From a virus: 64,000 nt of DNA. Under the pieces are notes generated by a model. It was not told the DNA's origin, did no database searches, and saw only the letters and a list, made by a program, of their open reading frames with translations. Each line of letters starts with the position of its first letter. The stretch's first letter is position 1. The position numbers and the translations under genes are program-made. Shown one piece after another: positions 14,327 through 55,315 of the stretch. The stretch lies in the IMG/VR virus record IMGVR_UViG_3300044956_000373, positions 1 through 64,000 of that record; one strand, 5' to 3'.

Positions 14327-17146
14327 ATGATATCACAAGAAGAAATTGAACAATTTCTTCAGGGAAATGATCCTGAAGAATTTATCGTATCCGTAGAATA
14401 CGATTACTTATCCGACAAAATTTTTAAAATCAAAGAAGTTCCTGGTAAAGGAAAACGAATCCAAAAAGATACATTAATATCTTTTGCTTGGGTCGGAGAT
14501 TTACGAAATCTAAATTTTTATTCTAAATCTAAGGCTCTACAGAAAGAAGCCATGACAAAACATGGTATCATTATAGAAAAACTACGAACTGACAAAAACG
14601 AGCGTTTAGATAATGGATTAACATTTCTTGTTAAGTCCATGAAAGGTTATAGAAACCTTATTCAGTTTTTTAGAGAAGGTGGAGTTGATCCTTGGGGTGA
14701 AAATGTAAGAGACCTTATCATGGTTCTTCCCCCTGTTGAGCAATACCTTATCTCAAAAGAAAAACGACTATTCAAAGGATTCGAGGAATACAATGACATC
14801 ACGAGGATGGTATTCGACCTTGAGACGACCTCACTTGAACCCAAGGATGGTCGTATCTTCATGATTGGAATCAAAACAAACAAAGGATTCAAAAAAGTTA
14901 TTGAGTGCACTAACGAAGATGAAGAACGAAGAGGTATTACGGAGTTCTTTAGAATAATAGAAGAACAAAAACCATCAATTCTTTCAGGATACAACTCATT
15001 CAACTTCGACTGGTATTGGATTTATGAAAGATGTAAAATCTTGAATATTGATATCAAACGAGTTGCAAAATCTTTAAACCCTGCGAAATCTATTTCACAA
15101 AAAGAGTCCATGTTGAAACTTGCAAACGAGGTAGAGAAATTTACTCAAACTCAAATGTGGGGTTATAACATTATTGACATTTTACATTCTGTTAGAAGAG
15201 CCCAAGCCATCAACTCAAACATCAAAGAAGCTGGTTTGAAGTATATTACAAAATATATTGAGGCTGAGGCTCCTGATCGTGTTTATGTTGAACATAATAA
15301 AATCGGATCGATGTATCGTGAGAAAGAAGAGTATTGGTTAAACATTGAAAATGGTAAATACAAGAAAGTTGGTGTAGACACAAAGATTGATGAGGTTTGT
15401 TCGAGACACTCAAATGTATATTTGAAAACAACTGGGGACGACATTATTGAGCGTTATCTTGACGATGACCTTGAAGAAACTCTATTGGTTGACGAAGAAT
15501 TCAACCAAGGTTCGTTTTTGTTGGCATCACTTCTTCCAACAACATATGAAAGAGTTTCAACGATGGGAACGGCAACATTATGGAAAATGTTGATGTTGGC
15601 ATGGTCTTATAAACATGGACTTGCAATTCCCGCGAAGAATGACAAAGGGAACTTTGTAGGAGGACTTTCCCGTTTGATTCGAACAGGATACTCCAAGAAC
15701 GTATTAAAACTTGACTACTCGTCTCTATATCCGTCCATTCAGTTGGTTCACGATGTATTCCCCGAATGTGATGTGACAGGTGCAATGAAAGGTTTATTGT
15801 CTTACTTCCGTAACACTCGTATCAAATACAAACAACTTGCTGAGGAGTATGCGACAATAGACAAAAAGAAATCAACTTCTTATGACCGTAAACAATTACC
15901 AATTAAGATCTTCATAAACTCAATGTTTGGATCCTTGTCAGCCCCACAAGTATTTCATTGGGGTGATATGGACAAGGGTGAGATGATTACTTGTACAGGT
16001 CGTCAGTATCTTCGTATGATGATTAACTTCTTTATGGATCGTGGATATACACCTCTTGTAATGGACACGGACGGTATTAACTTCTCTGTTCCTGATGGTG
16101 TTGAGGAAAGACGATATGTTGGTAAAGGTCTGAATTGGAAGGTAAAAGAAGGTAAAGAATATATTGGTGAAGAAGCAGATGTGATGGAATTTAATGATCT
16201 TGCGATGAGAGGTGAGATGGCTCTTGATGCCGACGGACAATGGCCTGCGTGCATTAACTTATCTCGTAAAAACTACGCACTTATAACCTCTAAAGGTAAA
16301 ATTAAACTTACAGGAAACTCAATTAAATCTAAGAAAATGCCAATTTATATTGAGAAGTTCTTAGATAAAGGGATCAAACTTCTTTTAGATGGTGAAGGCC
16401 AAGAATTTGTTGAGTATTATTATGAATATTTACAACAGATATTTGATTTACAAATACCTTTGTTGGATATTGCAAACAAAGCAAAAGTAAAACAAAGTAT
16501 TGATGACTATATTATTCTTAGTAAACAAACAACAAAGGCAGGAAGTTTAATGTCTCGTCAAGCACATATGGAACTTGCTATCAAAGAAGGTCTCAATGTA
16601 AATCTTGGTGATGTAATCTTTTATGTAAATAACGGAACTAAGACTTCACACGGTGATGTTCAGAAAGTTAATAAACCAAAGAAAGGATGGTCTAAAGAAC
16701 ATATTAATACTTATGGTGGATCTATTCCTGATAACTTAGAGTCGATAATACAACTTAATTGTTATCGTATTGACCCTTCGGATTTAGAAAATAACCCAAT
16801 TATGAAAGGTCAGTATAACATCCAACGAGCAATCGCAACATTTAACAAAAGAGTGGAACCATTACTTGTAGTGTTTAAACAAGTAGTTAGAAACGGATTG
16901 TTAGTTAAAAACCCTGAGGACAGACCATTCTTCACTAAAGATCAATGTGAACTAATCAATGGACAACCTTTTCATGAAGAAGATCAAGATAAGTTAGAAG
17001 ATGTTATGGAAATATCGGATGAAGAAATGTCGTTTTGGAATAGAGTTGGTGAAACTCCATATCACATGTATAAGTTAGCGGATAATAGTATGTTAAGATA
17101 CGTTCCCGAAAATGATTTAGTCAAGTTTAATACCATCACTAGATAA
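14327..17146 (+). CDS. Family B DNA polymerase (T4 gp43-like)
   Basis: The 939-residue replicative polymerase with a 3'-5' proofreading exonuclease. Exo I is VFDLETTS with D164 and E166. Exo II is LSGYNSFNFDWYW. Polymerase motif A is LDYSSLYPS (D463). Motif B is KIFINSMFGSLS (K527 onward). Motif C is MDTDGINF (D580, D582). Length is close to T4 gp43 (898 residues). It stands alone, away from the other replication genes at 46.8-54.6 kb, and is preceded by a leader hairpin. Its end overlaps by 30 bp the 3' end of the convergent minus-strand gene at 17117. No intein or gene split is seen. It should act with the gp32-like protein and gp41-like helicase encoded further on. Confidence 0.95.
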   Translation: MISQEEIEQFLQGNDPEEFIVSVEYDYLSDKIFKIKEVPGKGKRIQKDTLISFAWVGDLRNLNFYSKSKALQKEAMTKHGIIIEKLRTDKNERLDNGLTFLVKSMKGYRNLIQFFREGGVDPWGENVRDLIMVLPPVEQYLISKEKRLFKGFEEYNDITRMVFDLETTSLEPKDGRIFMIGIKTNKGFKKVIECTNEDEERRGITEFFRIIEEQKPSILSGYNSFNFDWYWIYERCKILNIDIKRVAKSLNPAKSISQKESMLKLANEVEKFTQTQMWGYNIIDILHSVRRAQAINSNIKEAGLKYITKYIEAEAPDRVYVEHNKIGSMYREKEEYWLNIENGKYKKVGVDTKIDEVCSRHSNVYLKTTGDDIIERYLDDDLEETLLVDEEFNQGSFLLASLLPTTYERVSTMGTATLWKMLMLAWSYKHGLAIPAKNDKGNFVGGLSRLIRTGYSKNVLKLDYSSLYPSIQLVHDVFPECDVTGAMKGLLSYFRNTRIKYKQLAEEYATIDKKKSTSYDRKQLPIKIFINSMFGSLSAPQVFHWGDMDKGEMITCTGRQYLRMMINFFMDRGYTPLVMDTDGINFSVPDGVEERRYVGKGLNWKVKEGKEYIGEEADVMEFNDLAMRGEMALDADGQWPACINLSRKNYALITSKGKIKLTGNSIKSKKMPIYIEKFLDKGIKLLLDGEGQEFVEYYYEYLQQIFDLQIPLLDIANKAKVKQSIDDYIILSKQTTKAGSLMSRQAHMELAIKEGLNVNLGDVIFYVNNGTKTSHGDVQKVNKPKKGWSKEHINTYGGSIPDNLESIIQLNCYRIDPSDLENNPIMKGQYNIQRAIATFNKRVEPLLVVFKQVVRNGLLVKNPEDRPFFTKDQCELINGQPFHEEDQDKLEDVMEISDEEMSFWNRVGETPYHMYKLADNSMLRYVPENDLVKFNTITR

Positions 17147-17464
17147 TATATACCAAGTTCCTGACACAAATCTAAAATTGATACAAGCTCCTCTTGATAG
17201 TGAAATTTCATCCCAATCTTCGTCTATTCGACCAATGTCGGGTATAATAGTCACACTTGTCAGTGTTTTTATTGTTACAATTTCCGTAGTTAAAGAATTT
17301 AATTTTATTTTTGATTGATTAACATCTTTAACAATTATTAATTCTTCACCATTTGTAGCGTAGAAATTCTCGCTAATAACCGCAGTTTCATGAGTATCAT
17401 ACACAAATGATCTGTCTCCTCTAATTATTGTTTTTCTTGTTGGTCTTCCAGTGAAAATCGACAT
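17117..17464 (-). CDS. Small structural protein downstream of the neck gene, unknown
   Basis: A 115-residue protein from ATG 17464 (MSIFTGRPTRKT), which lies just after the neck-gene stop. An alternative ATG at 17476 would overlap that gene by 11 bp. It is a beta-rich sequence with FVYDTHETAVISEN near the front and SGTWYILSSDG at the end, a pattern often seen in small capsid-decoration or appendage domains. No family recognised. It is the last gene of the minus-strand operon. Its 3' end overlaps the DNA polymerase gene by 30 bp, so convergent transcription must be limited here, yet no clear terminator is seen. Confidence 0.6.
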   Translation of the reverse strand: MSIFTGRPTRKTIIRGDRSFVYDTHETAVISENFYATNGEELIIVKDVNQSKIKLNSLTTEIVTIKTLTSVTIIPDIGRIDEDWDEISLSRGACINFRFVSGTWYILSSDGIKLD

Positions 17465-17465
17465 A

Positions 17466-18590
17466 TTATATAACATATATTTGTTTAGGCATAGCTCTAA
17501 ACTTTAATTGTTTATTTAGGTTTTCAGCTAATAAAGATTCTCTTTCCATTATTTTTTCAGGACGAAGTCTTGTTAATCTACCCTCCGTACCAATTAACTC
17601 GTCAATTAATTTTGTTTTTTCATCTTTAGCTTCAGTTGCCAGAGCGGCGTAATCCATAGTCAAATCCCCATCAGGAGTTTTTAAACTACCTGAAAATTTA
17701 CCTCTAACTCTTGCTAAAGTTTCTTTACAATATGCCGTAAACCATCTTCTAACCCATATTTGTGCGGGATTATTTAACTCGTACCAACTAATTTTTTCAA
17801 AAGGTACATCAGATGGTAATTTAATAATATCAGGATTATCTTTCAAACATTGGTCTCTATCACCACCATCAATGTCGTAATACCAATACCAAACTCTACC
17901 TTGCATTAATTCTGAATTACCAAAGTCAAATTTACCACCTGGTGTGTTCATTAAGTGTAATGCTTTTTTACCTCCTGGTAATGCAGTAACTCTGTAAGTT
18001 AACTCACCAGCTATTATTCTTTTTTGAATATTAATCTCTTGCATTCTGAGTAACATGTCAAATGCCGGCATTAAAAAGTAACTACCCGACATATTACCAA
18101 CTTGAGCATATCCTGCAGGTCCTGATATACCACCACCTGCAATACCACCAAAAGCCCAAGGGTCGAATAATAAATTATTTAAAGTTGGTGGCGTAAACCA
18201 AAGTACTTCATTTAGTTCTCTACCTGCAGGTATTTCATATATCTGTTGATTGGGGACTAATTGTACATAATCTTTTTTTAAGACCCAATCACCTCCCGCT
18301 TGTAAACCCACTATCTTAGAATATGCATAAGTATACCTTGTTTCGAAATCTAAACTTTTAGTTAAAAAGGCTTTTGATAATGATTGTGTATCCAAATCTA
18401 AATTATAGAGTGAAGTCCATTGAGACTCTATTAACCAGTCTTGAACGTATTGTGAATAATCGTCAATTGTATACTCCAACAGAGTATCCATCATTTCATC
18501 TTCCAACTCAACAGATCTTAACGGAGCACCCAATAAGTGTCTAACTTTTTGGTAAAACTGACTTCTTTCTGGTTCATTGATAACTGCCAT
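17466..18590 (-). CDS. Neck protein, gp13-like
   Basis: A 374-residue protein likely to be the head-completion/neck protein equivalent to T4 gp13. The N-terminus FYQKVRHLLGAPLRSVELEDEMMDTLLEYTIDDYSQYV has the pattern seen in gp13-like proteins of T4-type phages: a short helix, a 'LGxP' turn, then an acidic helix. Residues 140-170 are an unusual Gly-rich loop (AFGGIAGGGISGPAG). The C-terminus is helical. It has its own TATTTATA element 13 nt upstream and lies in a minus-strand operon with a 115-residue structural gene. Partners gp14-like and gp15-like are encoded on the plus strand from 24209. Assignment is by pattern and context, not a catalytic motif. Confidence 0.6.
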   Translation of the reverse strand: MAVINEPERSQFYQKVRHLLGAPLRSVELEDEMMDTLLEYTIDDYSQYVQDWLIESQWTSLYNLDLDTQSLSKAFLTKSLDFETRYTYAYSKIVGLQAGGDWVLKKDYVQLVPNQQIYEIPAGRELNEVLWFTPPTLNNLLFDPWAFGGIAGGGISGPAGYAQVGNMSGSYFLMPAFDMLLRMQEINIQKRIIAGELTYRVTALPGGKKALHLMNTPGGKFDFGNSELMQGRVWYWYYDIDGGDRDQCLKDNPDIIKLPSDVPFEKISWYELNNPAQIWVRRWFTAYCKETLARVRGKFSGSLKTPDGDLTMDYAALATEAKDEKTKLIDELIGTEGRLTRLRPEKIMERESLLAENLNKQLKFRAMPKQIYVI

Positions 18591-18624: not shown

Positions 18625-20832
18625 TTATTTATTTTCAGTACAAATAACAAGTTGTTTTTCTGACGAAGGAACATTTAACGTTACGGTTTTTAACGTATCG
18701 TCATCTATGAATTTATATCCAACAATTTTACTATATTCAGGGTTTATTCTAAACCTAATTGATATTCTTTTCTCGTCACAACCTTTTTGACCTTTGTTCG
18801 ACCAATACAATTCAATATATTCGATTGGTACAATGAAGTCGTCATCATAAATAATCCCTGACATTTGATTTTTAACTTTAGTTAGATAATCTTTTGACGT
18901 TGCATTTTTAATCAACCAATTATAAATTCTATCTATTAAATTATTATATAGATCACCTACAACAGATTTTTTATCCGATATTGAACTTTGTTTAAAAATT
19001 GAAAAGAATTCAGATAAATAACTATCAATAAATGGGTCCATTTTTTTTACCTCAAATAAAGATCCTTTAGGGAAAATAACTTCTCCATCCTCATTTTTTA
19101 AATCTTCAATAGACTCTAAATCTGATTTAATATAATACGAACCTGATTTAAATGATTGAGATATGCACCCAACGATCCTAAAAAAATGATAATCAATAGT
19201 TTCTTCTTTATTGTGTATTTTCATTAAAGTGTCGATTAGTTTTTCTTTTGTATCATCACTGCAATGATAATTCAATCTCAAATTAGTTGGTTTATATTTA
19301 AAAAATTTACCCTCAAATCTTTTTTCATATTTTTGATACTCTTTTAATTTTGCGGTATCTGTTATATCAGATATATCATTAGGGACAATTGTTGAGTTTC
19401 TAAATTTATTAAGAGTCTTTTTAGTTACGTCATCATTATAATCTTCATCAGTTATAAATAGGGCAATTAGATTTAAATAACTTACAACTCTTTCCTCATT
19501 TTTAAGTGCTAAATTTACAATTGCAGGAAATACACCAACATTTTTATTTCTAAAAAAATTATCTAAAATAATAATACTTTTTTCTAAAGAGTTTTTCAAA
19601 AACTCATCGGTCATATCATCTTTAATTTTTTTTAATCTACAATATGGTGAGTTCTCGATCTTTCTTTTGGTTGCGAATCCACATAAATAATCAATTATAG
19701 ACCCTTCAGTTTTTTTTGACTCACTAATTAAAGATCCTTTCGATTCTTTGTTTTTAGCTTTCATATTAAATAACTCTTCAACAAAATTCCAATTAACAAC
19801 ATCCCAAAACTTTTTAATGTATTCATCCCGTTTGTTTTGATATTTCAAATAATAGGCGTGTTCCCAAACATCAAGACCCAAAACAGGATACCCACCTCCT
19901 TTAACAATATCCATCAAAGGATTATCTTGATTTGTTGTGGACATAACTTTTAATTTTCCATCTTTAGTCAAATATAACCAAGCCCAACCAGAACCAAATC
20001 TATCTTTAGCAGCTTGATTAAACTCATCCTTCATTCTTTTGATGTTTCCAAAATCTTTGTTGATTTGTTTTAAAACATTCCCTCTTGGTTTTTGTTTTTT
20101 TGGTGATAACATTTTCCAAAACAATGCGTGATTGAAGGCGCCTCCGGCGTTGTTTCTCACTTTATCATTGAACTTGCTGATCGATTTTATTATTTCATCG
20201 AGCTCAAGATTTCCATTTTTATTTTTTAATTCTTTATTCAACTTATCGACGTACCCTATATAATGTTTATTATAATGTACGTCCATTGTTTTAGAATCTA
20301 TAAACCTAGATAGTGATGAATATGAGTATGGTAATTTTTCAATACCAATTTTTTTCATTTCATTTATTAGAGTTTTTTCTATTTCATATTTTTCAGTTAA
20401 AAGAATAGATTCGTTTAATAAATTTAATTTTTTTTGAATTCCTTTATTTTCATACATTTTTGGTTCGTGATCAGGGTTTTCTTTCTCAAACATCTTAACA
20501 AGTCTTCCTGCAAAGGCATTTGCTTCATCTTCATTTTTACCACCAATGTTTGGTCCTTTTTCTCTTTTTAAAACATCCATTTGATGTTCGTGAATCCATT
20601 CGTGAGCTAAGGTTCTCATGATATCTCTATTCATTCGATCACCAACTAAGACCTTAATAACGTTATCAGACCTTCTACTACCTGTTGACATAGCACCTTT
20701 TTTTTGATTTAAAAAGAATATTTCCAAATCATTTTTTAACGGAAATTCTCTTTGTAGAAGTTTAATAAACTTATTAACAAAGTCAGAATGTTTTCTAAAA
20801 TCTTTATTTTCGTAATTGATAGATACTTTCAT
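18625..20832 (-). CDS. Metallopeptidase-like / Mn-type superoxide dismutase fusion
   Basis: A 735-residue, three-part protein. Residues 1-125 carry HEWIH (H77, E78, H81) and EDEANAFA (E101), the HExxH...ExxANxFA pattern of ImmA/IrrE-like zinc peptidases. Residues 165-357 are a complete Fe/Mn superoxide dismutase: LPYSYSSLSRFIDSKTM, then ligands H186, H235 (NNAGGAFNHALFW) and D321/H325 (GLDVWEHAYYLKYQN). Q302 in STTNQD and the Gly in NNAGG match the manganese type. Residues 360-735 are unknown. (L/I)xE sites flank the SOD domain (LNE 139-141, LTE 145-147, INE 156-158, ISE 369-371), as expected of prohead-protease substrates. It lies 1 bp after the 142-residue gene. SOD would convert superoxide to peroxide; its place in infection is unknown. 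Confidence 0.85.
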   Translation of the reverse strand: MKVSINYENKDFRKHSDFVNKFIKLLQREFPLKNDLEIFFLNQKKGAMSTGSRRSDNVIKVLVGDRMNRDIMRTLAHEWIHEHQMDVLKREKGPNIGGKNEDEANAFAGRLVKMFEKENPDHEPKMYENKGIQKKLNLLNESILLTEKYEIEKTLINEMKKIGIEKLPYSYSSLSRFIDSKTMDVHYNKHYIGYVDKLNKELKNKNGNLELDEIIKSISKFNDKVRNNAGGAFNHALFWKMLSPKKQKPRGNVLKQINKDFGNIKRMKDEFNQAAKDRFGSGWAWLYLTKDGKLKVMSTTNQDNPLMDIVKGGGYPVLGLDVWEHAYYLKYQNKRDEYIKKFWDVVNWNFVEELFNMKAKNKESKGSLISESKKTEGSIIDYLCGFATKRKIENSPYCRLKKIKDDMTDEFLKNSLEKSIIILDNFFRNKNVGVFPAIVNLALKNEERVVSYLNLIALFITDEDYNDDVTKKTLNKFRNSTIVPNDISDITDTAKLKEYQKYEKRFEGKFFKYKPTNLRLNYHCSDDTKEKLIDTLMKIHNKEETIDYHFFRIVGCISQSFKSGSYYIKSDLESIEDLKNEDGEVIFPKGSLFEVKKMDPFIDSYLSEFFSIFKQSSISDKKSVVGDLYNNLIDRIYNWLIKNATSKDYLTKVKNQMSGIIYDDDFIVPIEYIELYWSNKGQKGCDEKRISIRFRINPEYSKIVGYKFIDDDTLKTVTLNVPSSEKQLVICTENK

Positions 20833-20833
20833 A

Positions 20834-21262
20834 TTATTTCGAAACTTCGAAGAATGTAGAATCGGACTCTAAAACATATTGTCCTAAATTTGTTATGTAG
20901 TTTACAGACGTTTTATAATTACCTGTTATCATAGGTCTATAAAAACTTGAGGTTTCGCCAGAAATAATCTCCGTATTAAGATGCCAATCCCATGTTGTTG
21001 AAATTACGGGTATCGCAAATTCAGTGGGTGTTATTGCAAATAAATCCGACCCATTGATCATCACGTTCAATTTATTTTCAAAAACTAAAGATAACATAGT
21101 AGTTTTAAGATTATTAATTTGACCTTGTAAATCAACATCTATTTGATCATTTATTGAATCTTCTGGTAAAATTTTTGTTTCTAATGATTCATCTATTGAA
21201 TCTAACGAACTAAGTTCATCACTCAACCCACTAATTTGGTCCTGATCTAATTTTGTTGGCAT
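20834..21262 (-). CDS. Small virion-type protein, unknown
   Basis: A 142-residue protein. The N-terminus (LDQDQISGLSDELSSLDS) is a helical, acidic segment of the type that opens many phage fibre or whisker proteins. Residues 60-142 form a beta domain. No family recognised. It is preceded by TATTTATT at 21279-21286 and its stop is 1 bp from the start of the SOD-fusion gene, so the two are translated together. It may be the attachment partner of that protein, which is inference from coupling only. Confidence 0.55.
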   Translation of the reverse strand: MPTKLDQDQISGLSDELSSLDSIDESLETKILPEDSINDQIDVDLQGQINNLKTTMLSLVFENKLNVMINGSDLFAITPTEFAIPVISTTWDWHLNTEIISGETSSFYRPMITGNYKTSVNYITNLGQYVLESDSTFFEVSK

Positions 21263-21286: not shown

Positions 21287-24208
21287 TCACCTTTTGTTAA
21301 TTAGGTTTAATATTTCCTCGACAACATCACCAACATTTTCAGGTATTTGATCACCCATCACGGTTCTGATAATTTCTTTTTTCTTATTCAAAATATCATA
21401 AATCACACCCTCTATTGTATTTTCATATAAAGGATAGTAAACCAACACGTTTGATTTTTGACCATAACGATATGCCCTATCTTCCGCTTGTGCGTGTTCT
21501 GCAGGAACAAATGATAAATCATTTATAATAACAACCTCAGCAGATGTTAATGTTAAACCAACACCAGCCGCCTTTAAATTACCAACAAAAACTTTTATTT
21601 TATCGTCATTTTGAAATGAGTCGACGGCTTGTTGACGAACTGAGTTAGAACAACTACCATCCAAATAAACCGCTTGATTTTTAAAGTGATGGTAGATTGT
21701 TCGAAGTGAGTCTGTAAAGTTGGTAAAAATAATAACTTTTTTCTCTTGTTCTAAAATATTTTCCGCAAATTCAATTGTTTGTTTTGTTTTTTCATTTGCA
21801 ATTACTTTTCGAACTTTCATTAATTTTGAAAACTGTACGGTAAGTGATGAAGATTCGTCAGGATTTTTATCATACCAATCATAATATTCACCCATTAAAT
21901 TTTCATATTCTTTCGATTGTAATCTCAAATAAACAGGTGTAATGATTTTATCGGGTAAATCCAAAACTTCTTCTTTTAATCTTCTAAGAATTTGTTTTGA
22001 GGTCCGATCTCTTAACTCTTCTAAGTTAGACGCTCCTGTTACGTTCCATACTTTTCTATTTCCTGCCTTAAACTGATACCCTTGACAGTATCGAATGGCA
22101 TAGGCCATCCAATTCTGTGCTACAGGGCTTTCGATGATACTCAAAAGATTGTAATAATTCATGGGTCGTGAAGTCATTGGTGTTCCCGTTAATAACCACA
22201 CTCGATTAATTTTTTTTACAAAACTATTTATGATTTTTGTTCTTTGGGCTTGTGCATTTGAAATCATATGGGCTTCATCTAAAATAACTAAATCAAAATT
22301 GCATTGTTCTAATAAGGTTGGTTCCTTACTTTTTGGATCGTGAAAGTTCTTTAGTATGTCGTAGTTGATAATCACAAAATCATGTTCGGTTGAAAATTTT
22401 TTTCCTTCACAAATAAAAACAGAACGATCTGAATAGTTTTCAATTTCTCTTTGCCAGTTTATTTTAAGTGATGCGGGACAAACAATTAATATTTTTTTTG
22501 ATCCTGTTTCTAAGGATGCGATAATTGTAGATGTTGTATTATGTGTAACAATACAATGTTCGGTCACATATAGTTTATCGGGAGAGTCTACTGAAATACA
22601 AACACTTTCTTCAAATCCAACTTTTTCAATATTTTTAATAAATCTACCAGTTGGGTATTTTATAGGTTCAATGTACTTTTCAGCTTTTCGTTTTAATCTA
22701 AAAGGGTTCATTCCTTTTGGTAGTTTAATATTAACCCTATATGATAACTGACCTTTCTTTTTTTCACCATTATATGTATATGTCGGAATACGAGTTTTAA
22801 CTCTCGCAATACCTCCTAATGTTTGAACAATCTCAACAACATCATCACAAAGTTGTTTTGAAATTGTTGAGTATTCGGTTCCTGAAAAATTTTCTTGTTC
22901 ATTATACATACAATGACCGTCAGTGTCCATTAACCCTTGTAGTATAGATAATCTATTTTCAATTGATGAATATTTGTATATTTCTGGTATAAATTTATTG
23001 TGTGAACGAGACTCATTTAATTTAAGATTACATAATATGTCTCTACCAATAAATTTATTTCCCTTTCTTTTGTTGTCAATTTGTTTATTTTCACTTAAAT
23101 TGAAACCACCAAATAATTCATCATAATCATCACTATGTACTGTAAATACACAAGATGATTTAGTTAGATGTCCATCCCCTAAAATTAAACCTAATAAATA
23201 AGGATCAATAGGAAGGTTATCATTTCGTTCAAATTGAATTGGTTGAACAATAGGAATTTGCCATTTATTATTTCCGTTTGTTGACTTGAAGTAAGTTTCA
23301 ATTTCATATTCCTTATCCTTATTATGACCAACACCTTTAACTTTTATTTTACCCCCCTCAAACATTTGTTTAGTTGATAATACTAAAGATTTTTTTCGTC
23401 TTTTGTTTTTTGTATTTTGGCCATAATTTGGTGATGATACTGACCATAAATGTTCATCCCCCACTAAAATTGAAAATCCGTCATTAAATGTGATTTTATA
23501 TGTTTCTTTGACACCCTGTAGAAATACACCAATAACATTATGAGATTTTCCATCACTACCAATTACTTTGTCACCCACTTTTAAATCACCAATTTTTTTT
23601 CTACCAATCGGGGTAAATACTTCGTTTTTTACATACTCGCATTTCCCCACCCCCATATCATCTGCCAAAATAAATCTTTTGGATCCTACCAACCTTTCAA
23701 TTGCAATTTTTTGATGATTTAATGGCGGTCGGTGGGAATACTTTGAATAATCAATTTCAACACTCTGAACATTGTGTGTTTTTATAAGTGCTGATTTGGG
23801 GACCCAAAATTCAGACAATTGGTCCTTTTTAAAAAACTTTCCCCAAACGTGATATGATTTTTCTTTTTCTACGAGTAATTTTTCTATATAAATTTTTTCA
23901 GGAGTTTGTAACAAATATTTTTCTTCGGCAAATTTCTTAGCGAAGTAGGTGTCTAACTCAACCCACTTTCTTGCAACCTTTGGTGTTGTTTCAAAGTAAT
24001 TTATAATATAATCTGCTTGGGCTCGGGTAGGATAAAACTTTTTGGATGTTTCTTTTTTCTGTTTTAAAAAAAGTATGTAGTTATTTGCACCACTATAAGA
24101 ATCAAGTAGTTCAAGAGCTTTGTGTTCAACTAAAGACGATATATTATCCAATTCAAGTCTTTCACTAAAAATAACAATAAAATGTATATTTATCAATAAA
24201 ACACCCAA
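21287..24208 (-). CDS. SNF2-type helicase/ATPase interrupted by an intein
   Basis: A 973-residue precursor; the mature host protein is 605 residues. It is an SF2/SNF2-family DNA translocase like SMARCAL1. Motif I is ADDMGVGK-TTST, split by the intein. Motif II is DEAH in LVILDEAHMIS. Motif III is LLTGTPM. Motifs V/VI are AAGVGLTLTSA and QAEDRAYRYGQ. It may do the fork-remodelling job of T4 UvsW. The start is uncertain: no ATG precedes the Walker A region. TTG at 24208 or 24196 are candidates and are back-to-back with the plus-strand gene at 24209. Adjacent downstream genes on the same strand are structural. Splicing must occur for ATPase activity because the intein separates the Walker Lys from the Thr that contacts Mg-ATP. 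Confidence 0.88.
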   Translation of the reverse strand: MGVLLINIHFIVIFSERLELDNISSLVEHKALELLDSYSGANNYILFLKQKKETSKKFYPTRAQADYIINYFETTPKVARKWVELDTYFAKKFAEEKYLLQTPEKIYIEKLLVEKEKSYHVWGKFFKKDQLSEFWVPKSALIKTHNVQSVEIDYSKYSHRPPLNHQKIAIERLVGSKRFILADDMGVGKCEYVKNEVFTPIGRKKIGDLKVGDKVIGSDGKSHNVIGVFLQGVKETYKITFNDGFSILVGDEHLWSVSSPNYGQNTKNKRRKKSLVLSTKQMFEGGKIKVKGVGHNKDKEYEIETYFKSTNGNNKWQIPIVQPIQFERNDNLPIDPYLLGLILGDGHLTKSSCVFTVHSDDYDELFGGFNLSENKQIDNKRKGNKFIGRDILCNLKLNESRSHNKFIPEIYKYSSIENRLSILQGLMDTDGHCMYNEQENFSGTEYSTISKQLCDDVVEIVQTLGGIARVKTRIPTYTYNGEKKKGQLSYRVNIKLPKGMNPFRLKRKAEKYIEPIKYPTGRFIKNIEKVGFEESVCISVDSPDKLYVTEHCIVTHNTTSTIIASLETGSKKILIVCPASLKINWQREIENYSDRSVFICEGKKFSTEHDFVIINYDILKNFHDPKSKEPTLLEQCNFDLVILDEAHMISNAQAQRTKIINSFVKKINRVWLLTGTPMTSRPMNYYNLLSIIESPVAQNWMAYAIRYCQGYQFKAGNRKVWNVTGASNLEELRDRTSKQILRRLKEEVLDLPDKIITPVYLRLQSKEYENLMGEYYDWYDKNPDESSSLTVQFSKLMKVRKVIANEKTKQTIEFAENILEQEKKVIIFTNFTDSLRTIYHHFKNQAVYLDGSCSNSVRQQAVDSFQNDDKIKVFVGNLKAAGVGLTLTSAEVVIINDLSFVPAEHAQAEDRAYRYGQKSNVLVYYPLYENTIEGVIYDILNKKKEIIRTVMGDQIPENVGDVVEEILNLINKR
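22538..23641 (-). mobile_element. LAGLIDADG homing intein in the Walker A motif
   Basis: A 368-residue in-frame insertion, residues 190-557 of the helicase precursor. The N-terminal junction is GVGK/C with block A CEYVKNEVFTPIGRKKIGDL. The C-terminal junction is EHCIVTHN/T, the canonical His-Asn end with Thr as +1 nucleophile. Two dodecapeptide motifs, LLGLILGDGH (about residue 340) and LQGLMDTDGH (about 425), mark a LAGLIDADG endonuclease of the DOD type. Removing it restores GVGKTTST exactly. All splice residues are present, so it is probably active. Confidence 0.95.
24187..24194 (+). promoter_or_regulatory. TATTTATC upstream element
   Basis: TATTTATC 14 nt before the ATG at 24209. It lies inside the extreme N-terminal coding part of the divergent helicase if that gene starts at 24208, which is one reason to doubt that start. 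Confidence 0.45.
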
Positions 24209-29489: not shown

Positions 29490-30320
29490 ATGAATTACAA
29501 AAATTTAGTTAACCAAATTATATCTGAAATAATTCAAGATCAGATGACACCAACAATGAAGTATTATGCTTTTGACTGGGATGACAATCTTATGTATATG
29601 CCAACCAAAATTTATTTAAAAGATAAAAATGGAAAAAGTGTTGGTATGTCTACTGAAGATTTTGCAGAATACCGAACTGAGATAGGTAATGAACCATTTG
29701 AATATGAGGGTCATACTATTGTAAGTTTTGATGAAAACGCGTTTAGAGACTTCAGAGTTACTGGTGATAAAAAGTTTTTAGTCGATGCAATGAGAGCCCC
29801 AATAGGACCGGCATGGGACGACTTTGTTGAGGCGGTTAATAATGGGTCTATTTTTGCAATAATTACCGCAAGAGGACATACCCCAAGTGTTTTAAAAAAC
29901 GCGGTTTATAATTTAATTCAAAAAAATATGCATGGATTAAATAAAAAAAAACTTGTTAAAAATCTTAGAAAGTATAGAGATATTACTGATGAAGACGATT
30001 TATCTGATGACGAACTTGTTAAGACTTATTTGGAGATGTGTAAATGGCATCCTGTAAGTTTCGGAGAAGGTTCAGCTGTCAATCCTGAAGAGTTAAAAGT
30101 CAGTGCTATGAGACAATTTATAAAGAATGTTAAAAACCTATCTCAAAGATTACAAGAAAAGGCATTTATGAAAAACAAAATATCTAATTATTTTACACCT
30201 TATATTGGTTTTTCAGATGATGATTTAAAGAATGTACAAACAATGAAAAAACATTTTGATGATGAATCTGGACTAGACATTTATCATACTGGAGGAGGAA
30301 AGAAAACTAAATTTGAATAA
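29490..30320 (+). CDS. HAD-family phosphatase-like protein with possible head-targeting leader
   Basis: A 276-residue protein. Residues 25-33 (YYAFDWDDN) carry the DxD nucleophile pair D29/D31 of HAD hydrolases. FAIITARGHT (about 129-138) is motif II. A late acidic GFSDDDLKNV (about 241-250) fits motif IV. Substrate unknown; it could act on nucleotides, sugars or protein. Residues 1-18 form an amphipathic helix with an I-S-E site (11-13), like T4 capsid-targeting peptides cut by the gp21 protease. It sits between sheath and tube genes in an otherwise structural block, so a virion-carried enzyme is plausible. The C-terminus is Lys-rich. Confidence 0.68.
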   Translation: MNYKNLVNQIISEIIQDQMTPTMKYYAFDWDDNLMYMPTKIYLKDKNGKSVGMSTEDFAEYRTEIGNEPFEYEGHTIVSFDENAFRDFRVTGDKKFLVDAMRAPIGPAWDDFVEAVNNGSIFAIITARGHTPSVLKNAVYNLIQKNMHGLNKKKLVKNLRKYRDITDEDDLSDDELVKTYLEMCKWHPVSFGEGSAVNPEELKVSAMRQFIKNVKNLSQRLQEKAFMKNKISNYFTPYIGFSDDDLKNVQTMKKHFDDESGLDIYHTGGGKKTKFE

Positions 30321-46021: not shown

Positions 46022-46699
46022 ATGAGTATTAGTAACAAGATATTAGAAGAAATAAAAAGGCACAATGATATAAATAAATATATTATGGAACAAGTACCAC
46101 CGGCACCTGAAGGCGAAATTCCACCACCACCGGCAGACGCGGCTGTAACCCCACCACCACCGGCAGACGCGGCTGTAACCCCACCACCTCCACCACCACC
46201 GGCAGACGCCTCACCACAAGTTGTTGATGTTGCAACAGATCCTGATGTTGAGGAAGTTGGTGTTGAAGGTGGGGAAGAAACTAAAGAGGAAGGAGATATC
46301 GAAGAAATTGACATCACTGATTTAGTAGATAATCAAAAAACAATGTCCGACAAACAAGAAGAATACTTCAACAACTTATTTAATCAATTAGAAACTTTAC
46401 AAAGTAAATTAGGAGAAATGGATCAACTTGTCCAAAAACTAAACAATATTGAAATTAAAGTTGATAAGTTCAGACCAAAAACTCCTGAAGAAAAATTAGA
46501 GTTAAGATCGTTAGATTCAGGACCTTTTAAACAAAAACTTTCTGATTTCTTTGAAGATAAATTACCTGAAATGGAAAAATCAGGAAAAAATGAATATGTT
46601 TTAACGTCGGATGAAGTTCAAAATTATGACCCATCTGAGGTTCAAAAATCATTTGACGCCGGTATTGAACCATCTAATCCTGACATATATTATAAATAA
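46022..46699 (+). CDS. Pro-rich, acidic protein with possible head-targeting leader
   Basis: A 225-residue protein. Residues 1-23 form an amphipathic helix ending in I-M-E (21-23), a possible prohead-protease site. Residues 24-65 are a Pro/Ala linker encoded by tandem repeats. Residues 68-105 are strongly acidic. Residues 105-150 form a coiled coil (KQEEYFNNLFNQLETLQSKL). The remainder is helical and charged. The composition resembles phage scaffolding or core proteins, although the location near hub genes is unusual for those. No enzymatic motif. A terminator follows. Confidence 0.6.
   Translation: MSISNKILEEIKRHNDINKYIMEQVPPAPEGEIPPPPADAAVTPPPPADAAVTPPPPPPPADASPQVVDVATDPDVEEVGVEGGEETKEEGDIEEIDITDLVDNQKTMSDKQEEYFNNLFNQLETLQSKLGEMDQLVQKLNNIEIKVDKFRPKTPEEKLELRSLDSGPFKQKLSDFFEDKLPEMEKSGKNEYVLTSDEVQNYDPSEVQKSFDAGIEPSNPDIYYK
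46121..46180 (+). repeat. Two perfect 30-bp tandem copies encoding Pro/Ala repeats
   Basis: 46121-46150 and 46151-46180 are identical and encode PPPPADAAVT. A partial third unit follows to 46210. GC content is far above the surroundings. Ten codons per unit allow length change in frame. Confidence 0.92.
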
Positions 46700-54682: not shown

Positions 54683-55315
54683 ATGAAAAAAATTATAAGA
54701 TTAACTGAAAATGACTTAAGTCGTATTGTAAAACGAATTATTAAAGAAGAAAAAACTCAAAACAAAATTGCCGCCAAAGTGGATGATGTTTTAGAAAAAC
54801 CGGAAGTTCAAGATAAAATTGAAGATATTTACAAAAATTTTGATAAAAGAGATAAAGTGAAGTTAAAAAATGTTTTAGATGATTTAGGAATAAATGAATA
54901 TTCTTCGGCGAAAGAAGTACACACTGCAATAGAAAAGAAAATCGAAGATAAAATTGGTGGTGAAATTGGCGAAAACGAAAGCCCAAGAAATAAGGCGTCA
55001 AAAATATTACATGGTATAGGAGCCGCTAATATTTCGGCTTGGGGTGGTGTACCGGCAGCAATTGCGATTGGAGGTCTTTTATCTACTACTGTTGGAGCTC
55101 CTTTCGTTGCTGGTCTTGCTGTAAGTTGGGGGGCAACGGCATTATTAATGGGTATTGCTAAATTACTTAAAGAAGACCCATCAATTGAACAATCCGAAAC
55201 CGCATCAGGTGAAAAAATATATCATAAAAAAATGAAAGGCGACGATTTACCCCAAGGACACAAAAGGACTATGGATGAAAACTACAGACGAAGACAATAT
55301 AAAAGAAGATACTAA
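54683..55315 (+). CDS. Possible head-packaged protein with membrane-like segment, unknown
   Basis: A 210-residue protein. Residues 1-22 (MKKIIRLTENDLSRIVKRII plus KE) are an amphipathic helix ending in I-K-E, a likely capsid-targeting leader with a prohead-protease site. Residues 25-100 are charged helices. Residues 110-160 are a Gly/Ala-rich hydrophobic stretch (NISAWGGVPAAIAIGGLLST, then VAGLAVSWGATALLMGIAKL), which could be one or two membrane helices. The end is Arg/Lys-rich (RRRQYKRRY). A head-packaged, membrane-active or DNA-binding protein is possible. No family recognised. Confidence 0.6.
   Translation: MKKIIRLTENDLSRIVKRIIKEEKTQNKIAAKVDDVLEKPEVQDKIEDIYKNFDKRDKVKLKNVLDDLGINEYSSAKEVHTAIEKKIEDKIGGEIGENESPRNKASKILHGIGAANISAWGGVPAAIAIGGLLSTTVGAPFVAGLAVSWGATALLMGIAKLLKEDPSIEQSETASGEKIYHKKMKGDDLPQGHKRTMDENYRRRQYKRRY

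Follow-up and report, generated by a model that had tools for sequence, protein, structure and literature searches.

A modular superoxide dismutase fusion gene of freshwater phages as a candidate internal-head cargo polyprotein

Why would a phage fuse a superoxide dismutase (SOD) to two other domains and keep the fusion among its virion genes? The question arises from a 64,000-nucleotide stretch of IMG/VR record IMGVR_UViG_3300044956_000373 (hereafter the window). A sequence-only reading of it had described a full Mn-type SOD between an ImmA/IrrE-like metallopeptidase and a large further domain, next to a neck gene. The window protein is indeed a single unbroken ORF of 735 amino acids on the minus strand (20832 to 18625), while the plus-strand reading of 18625-20832 is riddled with stops. 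The proposed layout was confirmed, with the SOD flanked by an HExxH domain (NPEP) and by a large domain that has no match among solved structures (CTD1). The features of the locus are as follows.

17117..17476, minus strand: 119-aa ORF (g119), a conserved neighbour (synteny)
17466..18590, minus strand: neck / head-tail adaptor protein, the conserved downstream neighbour (PHROG 211, E 1e-9; synteny)
18625..20832, minus strand: 735-aa ORF comprising NPEP (predicted zincin-like), linker 1, MnSOD, linker 2 and CTD1
18628..19692, minus strand: CTD1, residues 381-735, a domain found here only in phages (AF2, fold search)
19693..19767, minus strand: linker 2, residues 356-380, with ISE371/S as a putative prohead-protease site
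19768..20343, minus strand: Mn-type superoxide dismutase domain, residues 164-355 (approx.) (Pfam, PDB, invariance, tree, dN/dS)
20344..20451, minus strand: linker 1, residues 128-163, with (L/I)xE motifs ending at E141, E147 and E158 as putative prohead-protease sites
20452..20832, minus strand: NPEP, residues 1-127, HExxH + EDEAN metallopeptidase-like (alignment, AF2, Foldseek)
20518..20532, minus strand: EDEAN, residues 101-105, presumed third metal ligand (invariant in alignment)
20590..20604, minus strand: HEWIH (HExxH), residues 77-81 (H77, E78 and H81 invariant in alignment)
20834..21262, minus strand: 142-aa ORF immediately upstream of the SOD gene, present in only some relatives
21287..24208, minus strand: SNF2-type helicase with an apparent intein, the conserved upstream neighbour

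The neck gene starts 34 bp 3' of the fusion gene on the same strand, and its PHROG 211 match bears out the earlier assignment; a comparison of the neck protein with annotated phages returned no match. The polB gene is oriented against the minus-strand group of helicase, 142-aa ORF, SOD fusion, neck and 119-aa ORF. The window also carries a T4-like gene set: sheath, tube, baseplate, gp32-, UvsX- and EndoVII-like proteins, a DnaB-type helicase and RNR. In the SNF2-type helicase (21287-24208, minus strand), the apparent intein splits the Walker A motif (DDMGVGK/CEYV...VTHN/TTST).

The SOD domain is recognised by Pfam Sod_Fe_N (residues 165-243, E 1.5e-19) and Sod_Fe_C (residues 249-353, E 2.6e-40), both above the cut-offs, and its best PDB matches are the MnSODs 6gsc and 5a9g (E ~1e-64). 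The metal ligands H26, H81, D167 and H171 of E. coli MnSOD numbering correspond to window residues H186, H235, D321 and H325, and Q146 to Q302; the four ligands, Q302 and NNAGG are thus all present as first read. Twelve metal, gateway and second-shell residues are unchanged in 108 of 108 unique SOD domains, and the Mn-type features (three His and one Asp ligands, the His30/Tyr34 gateway, Gln146 with Gly77) are equally universal. Estimates of dN/dS were 0.044 for the SOD, 0.108 for NPEP and 0.244 for the linker. Judged from these alignments, the SOD and HExxH sites are intact and under strong constraint. A decayed SOD is rejected by the invariant active site and the dN/dS, and the suggestion that the SOD fold is used only structurally is disfavoured by the same evidence.

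The nearest cellular relatives are MnSODs mostly of Bacteroidota (e.g. Sphingobacterium, Pedobacter, Mucilaginibacter), at 47-55% identity. From these kin the phage SODs differ by their fusion and by forming one separate clade, with support of 100/100, in a tree with the 80 best-matching bacterial SODs. Because they form one clade against mostly Bacteroidota sequences, the tree suggests a single old acquisition by phages and hosts in or near the Bacteroidota; recent capture of a host SOD gene is disfavoured by the depth of this clade. Among named cultured phages, Flavobacterium phage immuto is closest by its capsid (37.8% identity). No SOD was seen in three 50-kb stretches of its gene table, and no virion proteome of it was found in the literature; nor, within the terms tried, was a paper on phage SOD in virions. 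In annotated phage records with matches, only the SOD region of the window protein was matched. The Fe/Mn SODs of Wroclawvirus and Vibrio phage 2.275.O belong to the same enzyme superfamily but are separate genes of ~180-190 aa, 25.8-28.7% identical to the window SOD.

NPEP keeps HExxH and ExExN in 89 of 89 unique domains. The AF2 model of residues 1-163 (pLDDT 84) predicts an alpha/beta, zincin-like fold, for which Foldseek returned weak PDB matches, the best being Wss1 (5xbv, E 9.5e-3). With Wss1/SprT-like and ImmA/IrrE-like zincins it shares an HExxH helix in an alpha/beta fold. The third metal ligand of Wss1 is a third His; that of NPEP is presumably the Glu of EDEAN. The ImmA/IrrE-like label therefore holds at the level of motifs (HExxH and a downstream Glu) but not of families, as Pfam and PDB sequence searches gave no family match: the window NPEP had none in Pfam at E <= 1, and that of one relative matched Peptidase_M76 only, below cut-off. 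Searches with NPEP, CTD2 and CTD3 sequences against Pfam, and with NPEP and CTD1-3 sequences against the PDB, yielded nothing convincing.

CTD1 has no assigned family. Its AF2 model (residues 376-735) is confident (pLDDT 89.7); the fold has no match in the PDB and a single one in BFVD, to an uncharacterised marine-phage protein (E 2.3e-15). The CTD2 of relatives has invariant E151, G189-Q190-D191 and Q204-V-K-P and no Pfam or PDB match; as a motif-level guess, CTD2 and CTD3 may be PD-(D/E)xK-type nucleases. Scans of viral contigs gave 71 loci with the whole protein, 80 with CTD1 and 79 with CTD2, and the best 80 of 360 loci were taken from a scan with NPEP. Profile annotation of all ORFs at these loci, counted as unique closed proteins, revealed NPEP-SOD-CTD2 (39), NPEP-SOD-CTD1 (28), NPEP-SOD (16) and NPEP-SOD-CTD3 (12). 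Proteins that begin with the SOD are SOD-CTD2-CTD1 (5), SOD-CTD1 (3), SOD-CTD2-CTD2 (2), SOD-CTD2-CTD3 (2) and 11 in which the SOD is joined to another domain of ~290 aa (SOD-X). None of the 11 SOD-X proteins has a CTD fused to it; the following gene of the slot encodes the CTD module. Standalone CTD1, CTD2 and NPEP proteins also occur. At one locus (L091), NPEP-SOD and SOD-CTD2 are two ORFs, apparently a frameshifted copy. An NPEP-SOD-CTD2 form (L054:9069-10457) has an extra insert of ~100 aa between SOD and linker, and at L192, L194, L196 and L197 CTD1 lies behind another N-terminal domain (MEFKK start, with ETRALIKILTHAVKSY), and the leader pattern again matches where the two meet.

The gene belongs to a large family of modular fusions in freshwater viruses of bacteria, and the three-part architecture, earlier called unusual, is so relative to annotated phages but common and modular inside its own phage group. 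The slot order is helicase, SOD-fusion gene, neck, then g119 or polB, with helicase and neck codirectional in the majority of members examined for each architecture. The helicase lies upstream in 42 of 44 NPEP-SOD-CTD2 loci and 30 of 30 NPEP-SOD-CTD1 loci, and the neck gene downstream in 38 of 44 and 28 of 30, absences possibly reflecting contig ends. A chance fusion or chimeric assembly is ruled out by the more than 100 distinct relatives, almost all of which occupy this slot, and by a second IMG/VR contig whose copy is 100% identical (L001). A FastTree tree of 90 NPEP-SOD sequences requires, by Fitch parsimony, at least 23 switches of the C-terminal module; therefore, the slot appears to exchange cargo while the SOD stays. 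That the neck gene adjoins in most loci would suit a structural part of the neck or head vertex with the SOD and NPEP folds as scaffolds, yet every catalytic residue is kept and such frequent module exchange is unlike a structural component, so that we give this explanation hardly any credence.

Linker 1 of the window protein reads ENKGIQKKLNLLNE/SILLTE/KYEIEKTLINE/MKKIG, and its E141 and E158 are unchanged in 26 of 26 aligned linkers. At least two (L/I)xE sites occur in 107 of 107 NPEP-SOD linkers, where the motif is found 338 times against 162±9 in within-segment shuffles, about twice the expectation. The other linkers behave alike: 117 against 35±5 for SOD-CTD2, 54 against 17±4 for SOD-CTD1 and 28 against 9±2.5 for SOD-CTD3. 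Conversely, the motif is rarer than shuffled in NPEP (95 vs 186), CTD1 (140 vs 174) and CTD3 (37 vs 64), slightly so in the SOD, and not depleted in CTD2 (274 vs 237); as related sequences are not independent, all these tests overstate certainty. The motif is also short, and AF2 renders linker 1 as a helix; L/I and E are favoured residues of amphipathic helices. A linker of this kind precedes the extra domain of SOD-X as well as each of the three C-terminal modules defined by profiles, and the post-SOD linker is absent from proteins ending in SOD. Proteins that lack NPEP open directly with a linker-type segment (MEKKLELLKETILLGESLITE/AKKIGIDK).

Which protease might act on such linkers? NPEP itself could cut the polyprotein independently of gp21, given its invariant HExxH and ExExN (89/89) and its place at the front of most versions, but SOD-CTD2-CTD1, SOD-CTD1 and SOD-X proteins keep linkers of the same kind in its absence, and we regard autoprocessing as highly improbable. 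T4 gp21 cuts after L/I-X-E, and the capsid targeting sequences of T4 internal proteins (IPs) are short N-terminal propeptides (PMC9026906). In a search of 23 long contigs related to the window's own record (G000), gp21 (PF03420, E about 4e-23 to 4e-25) turned up in 7 and not in the other 16, all possibly incomplete. One contig with gp21 (G018) encodes an NPEP (L087) 90% identical to that of the window. In both gp21-bearing contigs searched for it, gp23 was present, with an N-terminal region ...FLINE/ATSE... that presumably resembles the T4 gp23 site; gp23 was not found in G000, a partial record of 70 kb. Near the major capsid gene at two loci lies a large protein (L079:10488-12932, L080:5622-7715) whose C-terminal part, VELLYFEG...KWSTASEHNSDYF, we take to resemble Bacteroidota secreted proteins.

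Most standalone CTD1 proteins open with a leader such as MKIIISESQ. Among 1,723 unique ORFs, a strict leader pattern gave 38 matches near the start and 11 elsewhere, mostly at module junctions; this test was post hoc, and shuffled proteins gave 20 matches in total, at random positions. The window protein itself starts with NPEP (MKVSINYEN) and is free of (L/I/V)xE up to residue 34, the leader-like segment being internal. Paired N-terminal sites are absent from the window polymerase, helicases, RNR, sheath, tube and gp25/gp6-type baseplate proteins. One of the recurring leader classes begins a 210-aa ORF at 54683-55315 (plus strand; MKKIIRLTENDLSRIVKRIIKEEK); further examples of leader-class starts are 29490-30320 (MNYKNLVNQIISEI) and 46022-46699 (MSISNKILEEIKRHNDINKYIMEQ). 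In the 290.7-kb contig G012 (L322-L337), there are 0.61 N-terminal (L/I)xE sites per protein against 0.31, a roughly twofold enrichment, and ~50 ORFs, not all of them leaders, have at least two such sites, many clustering at ~195-285 kb. Its repeated classes include MKIIITESQY..LLE, MKRIVRLTESDL.RIVRRVI.EE, MNLQENIQRIK.MMGIINE and MKNIIRDILKEE, many G012 classes being unlike the SOD-gene linkers. Ten of its multi-site proteins compared with Pfam gave one Phage_lysozyme2 + Peptidase_M23 and one near-cutoff acyltransferase match, and none above cut-off for the other eight.

Could the protein instead be an uncleaved multidomain auxiliary enzyme, made late, that detoxifies superoxide inside the host, its linkers serving as helical spacers? 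The conserved SOD active site and the helix predicted for linker 1 agree with this, as do three inspected phage SODs, all standalone genes, two with chaperone/protease or translation genes nearby. Such an enzyme leaves unexplained why most domains are depleted in (L/I)xE, why standalone modules begin with leader-like segments and why leader matches fall at junctions, and we consider it unlikely.

We hold it rather probable, from sequence comparisons, that the gene encodes an internal-head cargo polyprotein that is cut into SOD and other enzymes and ejected. The polyprotein would be produced together with virion genes and enter the prohead core, where a gp21-type prohead protease would cleave after the (L/I)xE of its leader-like linkers and free an active MnSOD, the metallopeptidase-like domain and the third module. 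These would remain with the packaged DNA and reach the host at infection, where the SOD would lower superoxide and the other modules act on other targets. We infer packaging, cleavage, ejection, SOD activity and any benefit to the phage. This cargo reading would account for the linkers, the leaders at junctions, the independence of the modules and the gene's neighbourhood, and it gives the earlier idea of a virion link, which is supported, a more specific form: linkers resembling prohead-protease sites in processed internal-head cargo. In its favour count the invariance of the SOD, the motif enrichment in linkers and depletion in domains, gp21 and gp23 in relatives, the leader starts of standalone modules, the CTD as next gene behind SOD-X, and the lack of paired N-terminal sites in window replication and tail proteins. 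Against it count NPEP, which precedes linker 1 and, in contrast to T4 internal proteins, is not itself headed by a leader; the short motif, helical linker 1, kinship of the sequences and undepleted CTD2; and the failure to find gp21 in 16 of 23 contigs and gp23 in G000, together with the differing G012 leader classes.

The closest parallels are the T4 internal head proteins (IPI-III, Alt), of which Alt is an ADP-ribosyltransferase (PMC9026906). Related contigs share the T4-type head genes gp21 and gp23, and common to both systems are an (L/I)xE at the end of short leaders or linkers and enzymes as putative ejected cargo. Here, unlike in T4, there are several enzymes per chain, leader-like linkers are internal and NPEP stands before the first; nothing matching the IP or Alt families was found. 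Module shuffling and (L/I)xE-rich linkers are new, and we read the system as a probable variant of T4-type internal proteins. Chlorovirus PBCV-1 packages a functional SOD (A245R) in its virions, and superoxide is lower in its infections than with virus lacking SOD (PMC7019647). In both cases a virus SOD is proposed to lower superoxide at infection; A245R is a standalone Cu/Zn enzyme of a eukaryotic virus, whereas ours is Mn-type, fused, of a bacterial virus and presumably packaged. By this analogy, protection from superoxide at entry, as first suggested, is plausible.

The SOD polyprotein may also be one case of a general system, in which T4-type phages linked to Bacteroidota pack their heads with tens of different leader-tagged proteins, several fused as cleavable multi-enzyme precursors, an arsenal far beyond that of T4; we offer this tentatively, at slightly under an even chance. 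If the cargo reading is true, this would be, to our knowledge, the first phage-head multi-enzyme cargo polyprotein with an antioxidant enzyme. It would offer a rule by which ejected effectors of uncultured phages could be predicted from sequence, show how nature designs protease-released cargo for T4-type capsids, and let one test directly whether superoxide stands in the way of phage entry.
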